Of a stretch of 64,000 bases of DNA, positions 26,322 to 52,594 are shown piece after piece (the stretch's first letter is position 1; each line of letters starts with the position of its first letter). Below the pieces are notes generated by a model. It worked only from the letters and a program-made list of their open reading frames with translations, did no database searches and was not told the DNA's origin. Source of the stretch: Psychrobium sp. MM17-31 (lineage in GTDB: Bacteria > Pseudomonadota > Gammaproteobacteria > Enterobacterales > Psychrobiaceae); the NCBI RefSeq assembly GCF_022347785.1, contig NZ_JAKRGA010000003.1:558001-622000 (forward strand), read 5' to 3'. A program made the position numbers and the translations under genes.

Positions 26322-26738
26322 CTAGCGCTTGGCCATTGGGTGATCGTCATTAAGCTCTAATAAGTCCCACAAGTTGCCGTACAAATCTTCGAAAACGGCA
26401 ACTGTTCCATAGTCTTGCTCTTTTGGTTCGCGTACAAAATTGATGCCTAATGCAATCATACGGTTGTAATCTCGCCAGAAATCATCAGTGCTCAAAAATA
26501 AAAAGACTCGTCCGCCGCTTTGGTTGCCAATAAAGTTCTCTTGCTCTTGATTTGAAGCACGCGCTAGTAATAAGGTCACTCCATTTGAATTCGGTGGCGA
26601 TACTACAACCCAACGTTTGTCTTGCTCTGGCTGATAGGAATCTTCAATTAACTCAAATTTAAGTTTGTTGACGTAAAAGTCTATTGCTTCATCGTAATCT
26701 TTGACCACTAACGCAATATGAACAATGCTTTGTTTCAT
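26322..26738 (-). CDS. VOC family (glyoxalase-like) protein
   Basis: A 138-residue single VOC module: HIALVVKDYDEAIDFYVNKL opens the beta-alpha-beta-beta-beta unit, followed by WVVVSPPNSNGVTLLLA and VAVFEDLYGNLWDLLEL, which carry potential metal ligands His7, Glu and Glu. The group includes glyoxalases, dioxygenases and antibiotic-binding proteins, and the substrate cannot be told. It is 25 nt downstream of a small membrane-anchored protein gene on the same strand. Confidence 0.75.
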   Translation of the reverse strand: MKQSIVHIALVVKDYDEAIDFYVNKLKFELIEDSYQPEQDKRWVVVSPPNSNGVTLLLARASNQEQENFIGNQSGGRVFLFLSTDDFWRDYNRMIALGINFVREPKEQDYGTVAVFEDLYGNLWDLLELNDDHPMAKR

Positions 26739-26762
26739 CTGTTCTCTTTTGGTATAAGGGCT

Positions 26763-27365
26763 CTACTTAACTGGACAACTTTTAACTGATGTTGCGATGC
26801 CATTTCCCGTCGAAACAAAACAGTCATCTAACAAGGTGCAATAACAAAATTCAACATCTAGCTTCCAGCGCTCGTTATTGATTTTTTTCCATAACGCCTG
26901 ACTATTGGGATGTTCAAATAAGGTAAAGAAATTACGATCCGATTGTGCTGGTAGCACAACGCCATTTATTTCTTTAGTTACAAAACCGCCATCCTCTAGG
27001 GTCAATTTCTTATCTTTCGCAAAGAACTCTCGATATTGTTTATATTCAGAAGAACAACATGCATTTAGAAAGTCACCAATATTGTTATAGCGATTATCTT
27101 GATACATCAAGCTAGTATTGTGAATGATTGCTGCTCCTGAGCCGGAGTTGCCCATTGAAAAATTTATTACTTTGGTTTTTGTATTCGAGTTGTAATTACC
27201 ATGCTCAAATACCATAAGCGGAAGCGTCATGGCCTTTACCTGCTTTTCAGCTGCACTAGCTTGTAAATATGTGGCATAAAACGAAGCGAGAGAGATAAAA
27301 ATCGCACACAAGGCGATGATTAAATTTAGTCTATCTGCGCTAAAAACTGCTTTTTTCTCAGTCAC
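26763..27365 (-). CDS. hypothetical membrane-anchored protein
   Basis: A 200-residue protein with one N-terminal transmembrane helix (LNLIIALCAIFISLASFYAT) and a soluble remainder with immunoglobulin-like character, for example VINFSMGNSGSGAAIIHNTS. Six or more cysteines, several in pairs (ACCSSE, FCYCTLLDDC), suggest an oxidising location. I chose the GTG at 27365 because AAAGGGA lies 7 nt upstream; the longer frame would begin with an unsupported TTG at 27428. No family name can be given with certainty. Confidence 0.6.
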   Translation of the reverse strand: MTEKKAVFSADRLNLIIALCAIFISLASFYATYLQASAAEKQVKAMTLPLMVFEHGNYNSNTKTKVINFSMGNSGSGAAIIHNTSLMYQDNRYNNIGDFLNACCSSEYKQYREFFAKDKKLTLEDGGFVTKEINGVVLPAQSDRNFFTLFEHPNSQALWKKINNERWKLDVEFCYCTLLDDCFVSTGNGIATSVKSCPVK

Positions 27366-27479
27366 AATACAATCCCTTTTTATTTTAATTGTTGATTGCT
27401 GTTGCGAGTTAATGATAACTCCGCTCAAAAAGTGACGTTAAATTAATAGTTAATAGATATATATGCAAGCAACTTGACG

Positions 27480-27632
27480 TAAAAAAGCCCGCGCAACTTT
27501 CATTGTGCGGGCTTTTATTTTAAGTATTAACTTGCGTTAACGTACTTAATTACTCAGCAGCTGGTGCTTCGGCAGCAGGCTTAGCATCTTTCATGCCTTG
27601 GCTTTAAACGCAGTCGTACACGGCCTTGGCGA
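27480..27632 (-). repeat. duplicated 3' end of pnp with terminator (degenerate copy)
   Basis: This segment repeats the last part of pnp and its downstream region (genuine copy 27672-27806). It preserves the terminator hairpin at 27481-27517 (AAAAGCCCGCGCAA / TTGTGCGGGCTTTT), the spacer TTTTAAGTATTAACTT, the stop codon and 14 C-terminal codons reading MKDAKPAAEAPAAE. Beyond this point it carries small insertions and frame changes, so it is not translated as pnp. A second terminator thus stands 190 nt after the first. Confidence 0.9.
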
Positions 27633-27671
27633 TTGCGAGTACATGAATAGATCCTTCTTATTCACAAGATC

Positions 27672-27709
27672 AAAAAAGCCCGCGCAACTTTCATTGCGCG
27701 GGCTTTTTA
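27672..27709 (-). terminator. intrinsic terminator of pnp
   Basis: AAAAAGCCCGCGCAA and TTGCGCGGGCTTTTT form a 15-bp stem with a CTTTCA loop, about 25 nt after the pnp stop. Confidence 0.9.
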
Positions 27710-27732
27710 TTTTAAGTATTAACTTACGTTAA

Positions 27733-29838
27733 TTATTCAGCAGCTGGAGCTTCTTCAGCTGGCTTAGCATCTTTCATGCTTAAACGTACACGGCCTTGAC
27801 GGTCGATTTCTAGAACCTTCACGTCTACCATTTGACCTTCTTTTAGGAAGTCAGTTACTTTCTCAACACGCTCTTCAGTGATTTGAGAAATGTGTACTAG
27901 GCCATCTTTACCTGGTAATACTTCAACGAAAGCACCAAAGTCTACGATGCGCTTAACTGCGCCGTGGTAGATTTTGCCCACTTCAACTTCAGCAGTGATT
28001 GCTTCGATGCGTGAGATAGCGTCTTTAGACTTAGCGCTGTCTGTAGAAGCAATCTTAACTGTACCGTCGTCTTCAATTTCGATAACACAGCCAGTTTCTT
28101 CAGTAAGTTGACGGATAGTTGCGCCGCCTTTACCGATGATGTCACGGATCTTGTCAGTTGGAACCTTCATCGTAGTGATGCGTGGTGCAAACTCAGATAC
28201 GTCTTCACGTGCGCCAGAAATCGCTTCGTCCATCACGTTTAGAATGTGTAAACGCGCAGCTTTCGCTTGGTTTAACGCGATATCCATGATGTTCTTAGTG
28301 ATACCTTCGATTTTGATATCCATTTGTAGTGCAGTAATACCTTCGGTAGAACCCGCTACTTTAAAGTCCATGTCACCTAGGTGATCTTCGTCGCCTAAAA
28401 TGTCAGAAAGAACAACAAAGTCGTCGCCTTCTTTTACAAGACCCATTGCGATACCAGCAACAGACGCTTTAATTGGAACACCAGCATCCATAAGTGCTAG
28501 AGACGTACCACATACAGAAGCCATCGAGCTTGAACCGTTAGATTCAGTGATTTCAGATACAACACGTACTGCGTATGGGAATTCTTCTTTAGTTGGCATA
28601 ACTGCTAGAACACCACGCTTAGCTAAACGGCCGTGACCGATTTCGCGACGCTTAGGTGAACCAACCATACCTGTCTCACCAACACATGATGGTGGGAAGT
28701 TGTAGTGCATCATGAACGTATCAGTGATTTCACCAGTTAGGCTGTCGATGCGTTGTGCGTCGCGCTCTGTACCTAGTGTCGCTGTTACTAATGCTTGAGT
28801 CTCACCACGTGTAAATACGGCTGAACCGTGAGTACGTGGAAGAACACCAGTCATTACGTCTAGTGCGCGAATCATTTCTGGATCGCGACCATCGATACGT
28901 GGCTGGCCAGAGATAATGCGTGAACGTACAACTTCTTTTTCTACGTCGTGCGCCATTTCAGCAACAAGCTTAGTGTTTACTTCAGCGTTTTCAGCAACTA
29001 GTGCGTCAATAACGTCAGCGGTGATCACATCGATTTGCGCTTTACGCTCCATCTTGTCTGATACTTGGTACGCAGCAACGTAACGCTCTTCAGATAATGC
29101 TTTAATTTTACCTAGTAACTCTTCGTCAGTTACTGGTGCTGTCCAATCCCATGCAGGCTTGCCAGCTTCAGCTTTTAATTCTTTGATTGCTTCGATAACA
29201 ACTTGTTGTGCGTCGTGACCGAAAGTAACAGCGCCTAGCATGACTTCTTCAGATAGCATTTCAGCTTCTGATTCAACCATTAGTACAGCGTTGTCTGTAC
29301 CAGAAACAACAAGGTCTAACTGACTCGTTGTTAGTTCAGTTGTTGTTGGGTTAAGTACGTATTGACCGTCGATGTAACCAACGCGCGCACAACCGATTGG
29401 ACCGTTGAACGGACAACCAGCTAGTGAGATAGCAGCAGAAGTACCGATCATCGCAACGATGTCTGGGTTAACTTCTGGGTTTACAGAAACTACAGTAGCA
29501 ATAATTTGCACTTCGTTAACGAAACCTTCAGGGAAAAGTGGGCGGATTGGACGATCGATTAAACGTGCTGTTAATGTTTCGTTTTCGCTTGGACGGCCTT
29601 CGCGCTTGAAGAAACCACCAGGGATTTTACCAGCAGCGTAAGTACGCTCTTGGTAGTTAACTGTAAGCGGGAAAAAGTCACGGCCTTCTTCAGCTTTTTT
29701 CTTCGCAACACAGGTAACCATAACGACAGTGTCGTCCATGTTTACTAATACTGCACCGTCCGCTTGACGCGCGATAGCGCCAGTTTCAATGGTCACATTG
29801 TGTTGACCATATTTAAAAGTTTTAATTGTAGGATTCAC
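27733..29838 (-). CDS. pnp: polynucleotide phosphorylase
   Basis: 3'-5' phosphorolytic exoribonuclease of the degradosome. The 701 residues contain two RNase PH domains: the first with [21 protein letters not shown] in part, the second with [14 protein letters not shown] and [19 protein letters not shown], holding the catalytic aspartates. Then come a KH domain with [20 protein letters not shown] and an S1 domain with [20 protein letters not shown], then a short acidic tail. It lies downstream of rpsO as in E. coli, but two extra genes intervene. A degenerate copy of its 3' end lies just downstream. Confidence 0.98.
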
Positions 29839-31987: not shown

Positions 31988-32257
31988 TTAACGACGTAGA
32001 CCTAATTTTTCGATAGTTGCTTGGTACTTAGTAACGTCTTTACGCTTTAAGTAGTCAAGTAATTTACGACGGCTAGAAACCATGCGTAATAGACCACGAC
32101 GTGAGTGGTGATCGTGGATGTGCTTCTTGAAGTGACCTTGTAGGTGATTGATTTGTGCTGTTAACAAAGCAATTTGTACTTCAGAAGAACCAGTATCGTT
32201 TTCAGTGCGGCCGAATTCTTTGATGATTTCAGCTGTTTGCGCTGCGCTTAGTGACAT
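31988..32257 (-). CDS. rpsO: 30S ribosomal protein S15
   Basis: Primary 16S rRNA-binding protein of the small-subunit platform. The 89 residues equal E. coli S15; [20 protein letters not shown], then [20 protein letters not shown] and the C-terminal IEKLGLRR are typical. The ATG at 32257 is preceded by GGAG about 8 nt upstream; a frame starting four codons earlier lacks that support. In E. coli S15 represses its own translation through a leader pseudoknot; I could not confirm such a structure here. Confidence 0.97.
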
Positions 32258-32396
32258 AATAAACTCCAAATGTTTATAAGGTTTAACTTCATGTAGCCGA
32301 TCACTAATTCAGCTACACATCGAGCGCGGTATAATACCAGTATCGCTAAGATATACAAGTGATTATTACCGCAAGGTTTTTATCGCGTGGTTTAAA

Positions 32397-38509: not shown

Positions 38510-38531
38510 ACAAAAAAGGGCCAATTGGCCC
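38510..38531 (-). terminator. second terminator in the rimP leader
   Basis: GGGCCAATTGGCCC is a perfect 14-nt palindrome. The plus-strand run AAAAAA gives a U tract in the minus-strand transcript. It lies only 30 nt before the rimP start, so read-through must be regulated or partial. Confidence 0.7.
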
Positions 38532-38539
38532 AGTTTAAT

Positions 38540-38573
38540 AACAAGTAGTGTTCTCATCAGAACCATACTTGTT
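38540..38573 (-). ncRNA. extended hairpin between the two leader terminators
   Basis: AACAAGTA pairs with TACTTGTT (8 bp), and inside it GTTCT pairs with AGAAC around CATC, separated by a symmetric 2x2 internal loop. This is a regular elongated stem of the kind found in regulatory leaders. Confidence 0.55.
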
Positions 38574-38591
38574 TGATGTCGTTACAGGTAA

Positions 38592-38620
38592 TAAAAAACC
38601 CCGACTAAATAGCGGGGCTT
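38592..38620 (-). terminator. first terminator in the rimP leader
   Basis: In the minus-strand transcript AAGCCCCG pairs with CGGGGTT (one bulged G) and is followed by six U residues. It ends the upstream structured segment at 38629-38760. Confidence 0.65.
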
Positions 38621-38628
38621 AAAACTGG

Positions 38629-38760
38629 ACCCTGTATACCAAGTTGCCTTGGTAGCCACTGTCAAATGTTCACCATTTGATAGCGGACTTTGGGTTATGC
38701 AGTGATTTTAATTGTTGCCGTTACCTTCGAGCAGCCGCTCCAGAAAATAACTAAAATCTA
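38629..38760 (-). ncRNA. candidate structured leader RNA upstream of rimP-nusA
   Basis: Several hairpins follow one another in the minus-strand transcript: GAGC-GGCT-GCTC (38729-38740), TCAAATG-GTGAA-CATTTGA (38662-38680), and ACCAAG-GCAA-CTTGGT with a GNRA loop (38638-38653). Terminators follow. It does not fold as a tRNA; in E. coli this position holds metY (tRNA-fMet). I do not recognise a known riboswitch class. A cis-regulatory leader or a short independent RNA are both possible. Confidence 0.45.
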
Positions 38761-50352: not shown

Positions 50353-51540
50353 CTAATCCATTGTTCGAATCATAGCCTGATCTAGATCATTTATTAGATC
50401 TTCTACCTGCTCTAATCCCACTGAAATACGCAGTAGATTGTCAGAAATTCCTGCATCATTTCGCGCTTCAGGTGAATAAGTAGAATGAGTCATAGACGCA
50501 GGGTGTTGAATTAATGATTCTGCATCGCCCAAGCTCACTGCTACTTTGAACAATTTAAGGGAATCTGCAAATGATTTAGCAGTGTCTAAGTCACCGTTTA
50601 GCTCAAATGCAATCACGCCACCCGCACCGCGCATCTGAGAGCCGATAAACCGATGTCCCGCATGAGACACTAGCCCCGGATAATAAACGGTTTTTACGCC
50701 TTCATGAGCCTCTAACCATTGCGCGACTTGCTCAGCATTGTCACAGTGACGCTCCATGCGCACTGCTAGTGTCTTTAAGCCTCGTAAAATAAGCCATGCG
50801 TCGAACGGCGACATAGTGCCACCGATATCTTTTAACGTGGTGTGCTTAATTTGCGTGATGTGTTCTTCACTGCCACAAATAATACCAGCAACAACATCAC
50901 CGTGACCGTTGAGATATTTTGTCGCACTATGGAGCACGATATCGATACCAAACTCCTGTGGCTGCTGTAAGTATGGCGTCAGGAAAGTATTGTCAACAAT
51001 GGATAAAATTGCATGTTGCTTGGCAAAGTTTCCGATAAAGGTAAGGTCGTAAACCGCTAGGTTAGGATTAACTGGCGTCTCTAAAAATATCGCCTTGGTG
51101 TTATCGCGTTTGGCCGCTTCAATTTCATCGTGATTTGCCATATCGACAAAGGTCACTTCAATTCCATAGCGGGGAAACTGCTCGCTAAGTAATGCGAACG
51201 TACAGCCGTAAACAGCGTTAGATGCAATTAAATGATCGCCTTGCGACAACATAGCCATCAATACACCAGAAACTGCCGCCATGCCAGTGGATGTTGCTGC
51301 CGCCGCTTCCATTTTCTCTAATGCCGCCATTCGCTGCTCTAATTGAGTGACGGTAGGATTTGCCAAGCGAGTATAAATGTACCCTTGTTCTTCGCCTGCA
51401 AAGCGGCGACCGCCCTGCTCGCAATTGTCAAAGGCAAAGGTTGATGTTTGATATAAAGGCGTTGAAAGTGCGCCGTATTCATTGTCAGGATTTGCGCCAG
51501 CATGCACTAGCTGGGTATTAAAGTGTAAAGACTTGTCCAT
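50353..51540 (-). CDS. mdeA: methionine gamma-lyase
   Basis: PLP enzyme of the Cys/Met metabolism family degrading methionine to methanethiol, 2-oxobutyrate and ammonia. The 395 residues keep Tyr111 and Cys113 in VYGCTFALL, the cysteine that distinguishes methionine gamma-lyase from cystathionine enzymes. PLP Lys208 is in LHSATKYLNGHGD. SLGDAESLIQHPASMTHSTY also matches the P. putida enzyme. ATG 51540 is the start; a TTG one codon earlier is unlikely. Methanethiol production could feed marine sulfur cycling. Confidence 0.9.
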   Translation of the reverse strand: MDKSLHFNTQLVHAGANPDNEYGALSTPLYQTSTFAFDNCEQGGRRFAGEEQGYIYTRLANPTVTQLEQRMAALEKMEAAAATSTGMAAVSGVLMAMLSQGDHLIASNAVYGCTFALLSEQFPRYGIEVTFVDMANHDEIEAAKRDNTKAIFLETPVNPNLAVYDLTFIGNFAKQHAILSIVDNTFLTPYLQQPQEFGIDIVLHSATKYLNGHGDVVAGIICGSEEHITQIKHTTLKDIGGTMSPFDAWLILRGLKTLAVRMERHCDNAEQVAQWLEAHEGVKTVYYPGLVSHAGHRFIGSQMRGAGGVIAFELNGDLDTAKSFADSLKLFKVAVSLGDAESLIQHPASMTHSTYSPEARNDAGISDNLLRISVGLEQVEDLINDLDQAMIRTMD

Positions 51541-51745
51541 CAAGATTTCTCTTTCTTTATTGTTATTATTTAGCAGGCTTAATTTAAAGAGCCTAAGTCA
51601 GGTTAGATAGAATTGAAATAAAGCACAATCAATCAATAACTTTACAAGGCTATTTTCTTGTAATTTTTTATTTACATTAGCGCATAATCTCCCGTAAACA
51701 ATAAACGTAAATTACCACGGTAATGACAGCTCTGGTAAATCAAGC

Positions 51746-51786
51746 AACTGAGAATGTATAACTTGATGCTCTTATACACTTCCTAA
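51746..51786 (-). repeat. degraded fragment of the rplS 3'-end repeat
   Basis: A diverged stretch (AACTGAGAATGTATAACTTG followed by ATGCTCTTATACACTTCC) matches the distal end of the next repeat unit at 51928-51974. It is the remnant of a further copy. Confidence 0.65.
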
Positions 51787-51970
51787 TGCCCTAAACGCAA
51801 AAAGCCCGTCGTAATGACGGGCAATTCAAATGCTTTTCTAATCTGAGGGAAAAATTGGTGCTTATCGATTGGCCAATTTCTCTTTGCCATGTCTTTTTTC
51901 TAGCTGCTGCATGACCTGATAGCTCGCGTAACTGAGAGTGCAAAGCCTGGTGCTCTTACACATTTCCTAA
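51787..51970 (-). repeat. rplS 3'-end duplicate, outer copy, with terminator
   Basis: This 184-nt unit repeats the terminator of rplS (AAAAAGCCCGTC / GACGGGC at 51799-51822), the 3' untranslated stretch CAAATGCTTTTCTAATCTGA and the last codons of rplS. The reading frame is shifted by one base relative to rplS, so it no longer encodes the L19 tail. Confidence 0.9.
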
Positions 51971-52135
51971 TGCCCAAAACGCAAAAAGCCCGTCGTAATG
52001 ACGGGCTCTTCAAATGCTTTTCTAATCTGAGGGAAAAATTGGTGCTTATCGCTTGGCCAATTTCTCTTTGCCATACTTATGACTAGATGCTGCACGACTT
52101 GATAGCTCGCGTAACTGAGAGTGTAAAGCTTGGTT
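51971..52135 (-). repeat. rplS 3'-end duplicate, inner copy, with terminator
   Basis: Same unit as the outer copy, period 184 nt. The terminator is intact at 51983-52008. The L19 tail is still in frame: LRELS-SRAA, an insert SSHKYG in place of two residues, then KEKLAKR and a stop at the genuine position. Both extra copies share this insert and the distal segment CTCTTACACATTTCC, which the genuine gene lacks. Confidence 0.9.
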
Positions 52136-52172
52136 ATTCCCTTAAACACGTAACAAGAATTAAATCCCAAAT

Positions 52173-52200
52173 GCAAAAAGCCCGTCTTATCGACGGGCCT
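52173..52200 (-). terminator. intrinsic terminator of rplS (genuine copy)
   Basis: AAAAAGCCCGTC and GACGGGC form a stem with loop TTATC, 38 nt after the rplS stop. Equivalent terminators follow in the two duplicate units, so three stand in series. Confidence 0.88.
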
Positions 52201-52237
52201 TTCAAATGCTTTTCTAATCTGAGGAAAAAATTGGTGC

Positions 52238-52594
52238 TTATCGCTTGGCCAATTTCTCTTTGATACGTGCTGCACGACCTGATAGCTCGCGTAAGTAGTA
52301 AAGCTTGGCTTGACGAACAAGACCGCGACGCTTAACTTCGATGCTATCAACTAATGGGCTGTGAGTTTGGAAAACACGCTCAACACCTTCACCGTTAGAG
52401 ATCTTACGAACTGTGAATGCTGAGTGTAAACCGCGGTTACGAACTGCGATTACAACACCTTCATAGGCTTGTAGACGGGTACGGTTACCTTCTACAACAC
52501 GAACCTGAACAACTACAGTGTCGCCAGGTGCAAAGCTTGGAAGATCAGTTTTTAACTGTGCATCTTCGATTGCTTGAATAATTGGATTTTTCAT
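52238..52594 (-). CDS. rplS: 50S ribosomal protein L19
   Basis: Protein at the 30S-50S interface. The 118 residues (E. coli 115) include [60 protein letters not shown] and [20 protein letters not shown]. Last gene of rpsP-rimM-trmD-rplS, 33 nt after trmD. Its final 20 codons and terminator are repeated downstream two to three times. Confidence 0.98.

Follow-up and report, generated by a model that had tools for sequence, protein, structure and literature searches.

The intact ribosomal protein gene rplS is followed, on the minus strand of the analyzed stretch of DNA (64 kb, G000:C3:558001-622000, hereafter the window), by three tandem units starting at 52294, 52114, and 51931, each of which carries the 3ʹ end of the gene, the 3ʹ untranslated region (UTR), a terminator, and a spacer. 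The source genome, G000, comprises 4.17 Mb in 9 contigs. This array is clade-specific and represents the tyrT type of gene-tail array at a protein-coding gene, and its closest known case is E. coli tyrT with its RtT units. It probably arose as a duplication through slippage or unequal crossing-over that has been tolerated beyond the terminator, supplying back-up terminators at most.

Anatomy of the rplS array

The rplS gene is the last gene of rpsP-rimM-trmD-rplS (rpsP, rimM, and trmD were named by reading). The sequence-only reading had described a tandem duplication of the rplS 3ʹ end together with its terminator, and this was confirmed. Tandem Repeats Finder (TRF) reported a single array in the window, at 51746-52262, with a period of 184, 2.8 copies, and 85% matches, and blastn of the window against itself recovered the array over 398 columns at 82% (E 6e-111), indicating that it is not a product of chance. 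The spacings of 184 and 192 given in that reading were found again by the repeat search, whereas unit lengths of 180, 183, and 184 nt were obtained when the units were cut at the common TTACGCGAGC. A search of the G000 genome returned this locus and one 22-nt match (E 0.59). The genuine unit opens 57 nt (18 codons plus stop) before the gene end, and the array has the defining layout of a gene-tail tandem, namely at least two units behind an intact gene, each with a part of its 3ʹ end.

Pieces of all three units folded into a hairpin, GCCCGTC/GACGGGC, with U5 behind it, so that each unit has a predicted terminator, as had been claimed, and the array has the layout of stacked putative terminators; a simple terminator scan picked up the unit 3 hairpin only. 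The coding parts differ as described, the inner copy (unit 2, net +12 nt) being in the frame of the gene and the outer one (unit 3, net +13 nt) frameshifted, both states being determined by reading the sequence. Units 2 and 3 have a left junction and an insert in common that are absent from the genuine rplS end, indicating an older origin common to the extra copies and supporting the proposal that one copy arose first and was then amplified. The supposed fourth remnant (51748-51771) resembles the spacer ends before units 2 and 3 (none of 2000 shuffles was as good), and it can be read as the end of the unit 3 spacer, requiring no fourth copy.

A second array of the same kind, 24 kb apart, was found behind pnp (27481-27801) by comparing the window with itself; TRF missed this pair. 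The coordinates of all features are collected in Table 1.

Table 1. Features of the rplS and pnp arrays in the window and tail arrays at other loci
Feature	Position	Strand	Remark
rplS (ribosomal protein L19), intact, 118 aa	52238..52594	-	TIGR01024, PF01245
Unit 1: genuine end of rplS (last 18 codons and stop) with 3ʹ UTR, terminator, and spacer	52115..52294	-	
Unit 2: in-frame copy of the rplS tail (net +12 nt) with UTR, terminator, and spacer	51932..52114	-	
Unit 3: frameshifted copy of the rplS tail (net +13 nt) with UTR, terminator, and spacer	51748..51931	-	
Unit 3 spacer end (fourth remnant of the sequence-only reading)	51748..51771	-	0/2000 shuffles as good
Unit 1 terminator hairpin and U-run (predicted)	52175..52198	-	
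Unit 2 terminator hairpin and U-run (predicted)	51983..52006	-	
Unit 3 terminator hairpin and U-run (predicted)	51799..51822	-	also in simple terminator scan
Methionine gamma-lyase, next gene downstream of rplS	50353..51543	-	same strand as rplS
Genuine pnp 3ʹ end, UTR, terminator	27672..27801	-	window self-comparison
Copy of pnp 3ʹ end, UTR, terminator	27481..27631	-	spacing 191
G013 5S rRNA tail and terminator arrays	L238, L237, L239, L242, L243		
tRNA-Trp tail copies with T-loop insert	L157 14045-14332		one of three unrelated arrays
tRNA-Pro tail copies with T-loop insert	L229 9380-10010		one of three unrelated arrays
tRNA-Tyr tail copies with T-loop insert	L236 1411-1985		one of three unrelated arrays

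Distribution and history of the copies

The rplS gene is present in all nine family genomes compared, which belong to one genus, and the number of tail units varies among them (one genome per species), as would be expected of gene-tail repeats of the tyrT type. Three units were found in G000 and two in G001, whose second copy of its own tail and terminator is 98.5% alike to the first over 132 nt. G006 has two units, the second being a decayed tail (59 nt, 88%) in which reading revealed no terminator, and G007 has a 39-nt tail remnant (79%) without a second terminator. The same comparison found no second rplS tail in G002, G003, G004, G005, and G008. In a tree built from most of rplS and as much as 2.3 kb of sequence upstream of it, G000, G001, G006, and G007 form one clade with a support of 1.0, and these are exactly the four genomes with copies or a remnant. 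No conserved gene of another family turned up at the array site, and an assembly artefact is less likely because the copies differ from each other and the copy of G001 lies in a separate assembly. Behind rplS of G008, a different 75-nt repeat in 2.7 copies was observed (L008 1263-1461).

In a wider survey of 110 rplS loci, of which 107 had enough downstream sequence and 3 had less than 100 nt, copies were found in 5 loci corresponding to four genomes, all of this clade (L005 and L033 agree in length and coordinates and were counted as one genome); many of the loci hold only about 1.5 kb downstream, and the named and unnamed sets may overlap. A 36-nt match in L008 was discarded as part of another repeat rather than an rplS tail, and 15–16-nt matches in L045 and L100 were trivial. 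When 247 genomes of the order were scanned at the peptide level, 239 matched and 8 gave at least two matches, although the scan is blind to broken copies and G000 itself gave one match. Upon rechecking seven of these eight, a second tail close by was found in G001 only; the eighth, G040, has its two matches at the ends of two contigs. Among the matches listed by a literature search, whose coverage misses most subscription papers, no tail array of a ribosomal protein gene was found.

The bodies of the units, from the tail to the U-run, were compared by identity and by tree, with one genome per species. Among themselves, the three G000 bodies are 91.7–94.2% alike; set against the copy of G001 and the G001, G006, and G007 gene ends, they reach 82.9–90.8%. 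The two G001 bodies are 98.4% alike to each other, and 82.9–91.0% when set against the G000 copies and the G006 and G007 gene ends. The G000 copies were grouped in the body tree with a support of 0.970 and the G001 pair with 0.881. The second copy of G006 is 73–79% alike to all others except the G000 copies (82–85%), was placed with a support of only 0.251, and is too decayed to show concerted evolution. Among four outgroup species (G008 was left out of the table), gene ends reach 93.1% to the G001 copies, indicating that part of the likeness is plain conservation. As for the left junction, the 24-nt stretches flanking the extra tails on the left resemble each other in G000 and G001 (1 of 2000 shuffles as good) and in G000 and G006 (17 of 2000), whereas the likeness of G006 to G001 is not clear (162 of 2000). 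None of the three junctions is clearly alike to the stretch upstream of the tail in the gene itself (153, 468, and 232 of 2000 for G000, G006, and G001, respectively).

As the copies group by species and yet have a junction in common between species, the simplest history is one ancestral duplication followed by homogenization and by amplification in G000. It is unlikely that each species instead duplicated its tail independently by a recurrent process at transcript ends, such as terminator hairpins stalling replication. Such a process would fit the near identity of the G001 copy with its own gene end and the recurrence of tail arrays at unrelated genes and in other families, and the unclear likeness of the G006 and G001 junctions leaves room for it. 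It is opposed by the junction that G000 has in common with both G001 and G006 and by the confinement of all carriers of extra rplS tails to one clade.

Origin and possible use of the rplS array

Ordinary recombination is the likeliest cause of the rplS array. On the simplest account, a segment comprising the last 18 codons of rplS, the 3ʹ UTR, the intrinsic terminator, and a spacer of about 50 nt would have undergone a single head-to-tail duplication in the common ancestor of four of the nine family genomes. Later unequal crossing-over or slippage between units may have added the third unit in G000, and the same recombination could have let the array decay elsewhere in the clade. Through concerted evolution, the copies would have retained a UTR and terminator resembling those at the genuine rplS end, while their coding parts gained small insertions. 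Since the duplicated segment begins within rplS and extends past it, the gene stays whole and the copies come to lie behind the terminator, where they should do little harm; we infer that they are nearly neutral. At most, the array might provide back-up terminators that separate the rpsP-rimM-trmD-rplS operon from the methionine gamma-lyase gene. Such back-up termination, which presupposes that the putative terminators act in vivo, is the likeliest use of the array, if it has any.

Whether the terminators have been selected, rather than tolerated, is a related question. Strongly expressed genes may keep serial terminators against read-through into the next gene, a use also suggested by the sequence-only reading; this is possible in general and weak for rplS, and we regard selection of the stack as a tentative explanation only. 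In its favor, a hairpin and U-run are kept in all three rplS units and both pnp units, and the UTR and terminator parts are better kept than the gene-derived ones in the rplS, pnp, tRNA-Trp, and tRNA-Pro tails. By reading, the hairpin of the tRNA-Trp tail differs from the gene's own on both arms and still pairs, and one stem pair appears as A-U, G-C, and G-U among 10 picked 5S terminators of G013 (nine behind tail copies and one behind a 5S gene). The covariation of these 5S terminators is weak, however, as its score is equalled in 35 of 500 shuffles and its number of doubly changed pairs in 246 of 500, and reading of the E. coli RtT units revealed no obvious U-run terminator in each. Since G006 and G007, two of the four clade members, lack a second rplS terminator, the stack is not strictly needed for rplS; moreover, five of the nine genus members have a single unit.

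It is very unlikely that the units were made and kept as a source of short 3ʹ-derived RNAs, in the way that RtT derives from the tyrT transcript. RtT itself is described as released from a tRNA operon transcript, and RtTs are reported to give Northern signals in A. pleuropneumoniae (PMC4986893). Pieces of units 1 and 2 also fold more stably than shuffles (z −2.2 and −2.3, with −1.6 for unit 3), but this stability resides largely in the terminator hairpin. Furthermore, units 2 and 3 lie behind a terminator, no promoter signal rose above chance (one promoter-like match against a shuffle mean of 2.5), and the RtT covariance model (Rfam RF00391) gave no match in the 64-kb window.

The remaining suggestion of the sequence-only reading, that the units are scars left by an integrative element whose attachment site is the 3ʹ end of rplS and which restores this end, is highly improbable and was rejected. 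The copies do begin inside the gene end, as restored ends do, and in G007 an integron integrase gene lies directly downstream of pnp, the other gene whose tail is duplicated in the window. However, none of the 65 tyrosine-integrase matches in the nine genomes lies on a contig with rplS, in a search directed at tyrosine integrases in which some rplS contigs were short (5.6 kb for G001). The units adjoin each other, with only short spacers between a terminator and the next tail, and neither an element nor a remnant of one was found between the rplS gene ends. A phage search returned three records, all of Salmonella or E. coli origin, of which two are annotated as L19 and one carries no annotation, and a strict 38-nt pattern gave no match in viral contigs. 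A site-specific element at rplS is therefore not supported.

The case for a site-specific element is more open at pnp. The G007 integrase gene is convergent with pnp (L233 4455-5381, G007:C181) and matches TIGR02249 with 443.6 bits, the model cut-off being 265. Between pnp and an NlpI-like lipoprotein gene (named by reading), G000 has two additional ORFs (window 26322-27428), one of them glyoxalase-like by reading and the other, of 221 aa, without a Pfam or NCBIfam match. The NlpI-like gene comes next after pnp in G001, G002, G003, G004, G005, and G008, and no pnp match was found in G006.

Tail arrays at other genes and known systems

Repeats of this kind behind tyrT have been a curiosity for decades. 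Like the rplS array, E. coli tyrT/tyrV (RtT RNA, Rfam RF00391, rttR/tpr) has tandem units behind a gene, each with a piece of its 3ʹ end, and reading of the tail copies revealed an insert in the gene-derived part; unlike rplS, the gene is a tRNA gene rather than the source of a ribosomal-protein mRNA, and there is no clear terminator in each unit. Four RtT matches were found within 2.9 kb of the E. coli tyrTV reference (L236), and the RtT unit was present in 4680 of 5426 E. coli genomes, at 1 to 9 places per genome (median 2), a count that takes in the whole genome and is not confined to the tyrT locus. The tRNA-Pro/tRNA-His cluster of Photobacterium phosphoreum, also a gammaproteobacterium, is repetitive and resembles the rplS array in its tandem tRNA-derived repeats. 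BIME/REP elements are likewise intergenic repeats with hairpins, but they are dispersed over a genome, whereas the rplS array occupies a single place in its own. Candidate rtT-like attenuators are said to belong to BIMEs (PMC2965389).

Further tail arrays were found in 1.264 Mb of G000 (the window plus 60 stretches of 20 kb) and in three control samples of 400 kb from G013, G005, and G017. In G000, tail-only duplications were found at tRNA-Val, tRNA-Asn, and tRNA-Trp (the last with a terminator), and the 3ʹ part of a REP-type transposase gene is duplicated with a spacing of 482 (its NCBIfam match of 45.4 bits is below the model cut-off of 80). The G013 sample contained 5S rRNA tail and terminator arrays at three places, the G005 sample a tRNA-Leu tail duplication, and the G017 sample a tRNA-Pro tail array of five copies together with a duplicated 5ʹ part of the same gene. 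At this last locus (L229 9211-9410), the 5ʹ part is repeated twice upstream and the 3ʹ end five times downstream. Two further tandem duplications in G000, of 163 and 155 nt (L139 5237-5562 and L256 17403-17706), span gene junctions, comprising the tail of one gene and the start of the next; they involve an MnmC-like end (by reading) and a GGDEF-EAL protein.

Across the four sampled genomes, tail-only duplications outnumbered head-only ones by 11 to 1, or by 9 to 1 with the 5S places taken as one (two-sided sign tests by hand, about 0.006 and 0.02, respectively). This count, for which ORFs were called by length, depends on our own classification. It excludes repeats of entire tRNA or 5S genes, arrays within ORFs, the two junction cases, and repeats overlapping no clear gene end (L145, L155, L173, L180, L193, L210, L224, and L227); 79 loci around rplS (628 kb) gave three further matches, L036, L045, and L055, which stand outside the classification. 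The excess of tails could be explained solely by the fact that a tail duplication leaves the gene whole and its copies hardly transcribed.

The 5S arrays of G013 resemble the rplS array in that the unit consists of gene tail, trailer, terminator, and spacer, with one to six units at seven rrn places; unlike rplS, the gene encodes an rRNA, the period is about 125, and the change in the tail copies is an altered loop, not an insert in a coding part. Across the whole genome of G013, eight full 5S matches were found at seven rrn places; tail copies occur at five of these places, 2 to 5 at each and 17 in total, and the hairpin loop is altered in all 17. The arrays that were read are built from a single repeating unit made up of gene tail, trailer, terminator (where there is one), and spacer. 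In five of seven aligned arrays (rplS, pnp, tRNA-Trp, tRNA-Pro, and E. coli tyrV, for which the insert was taken from reading because the alignment placed it poorly), the gene-derived part of the tail copy contains an insert, and the trailer and terminator are better kept. The sixth, G013 5S, has the altered loop, and the seventh, tRNA-Leu, has neither feature; nor, by reading, has the tRNA-Asn tail copy. In the tail copies of tRNA-Trp (G000), tRNA-Pro (G017), and tRNA-Tyr (E. coli), the insert lies right after GTTCG of the T-loop.

It is conceivable that such arrays are the general product of one process linked to transcript ends at strongly transcribed gammaproteobacterial genes (5S rRNA, tRNAs, rplS, and pnp), with units of 100–190 nt, terminators kept, and a gene part often broken by a small insert, located in the T-loop in three tRNA tails; we give this generalization rather little credence at present. 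The wider pattern is nevertheless the part most worth a census, as an anatomy like that of tyrT is found downstream of two protein-coding genes within a single 64-kb window, of several tRNA genes, and of 5S genes from another family, and the rplS clade displays the amplification, evening-out, and decay of such an array. With these arrays and this clade, counting and 3ʹ-end sequencing can now be used to ask whether selection maintains serial terminators behind strongly expressed genes or simply tolerates them.

Two minor observations were made alongside. In G000, a hairpin-bearing stretch without a gene tail occurs twice, with a spacing of 142, behind a chemoreceptor-like gene named by reading (L145 1386-1599). 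In the window, an S15 leader and a rimP leader RNA, both Rfam matches above the gathering score, lie at 32201-32320 and 38511-38651, respectively.
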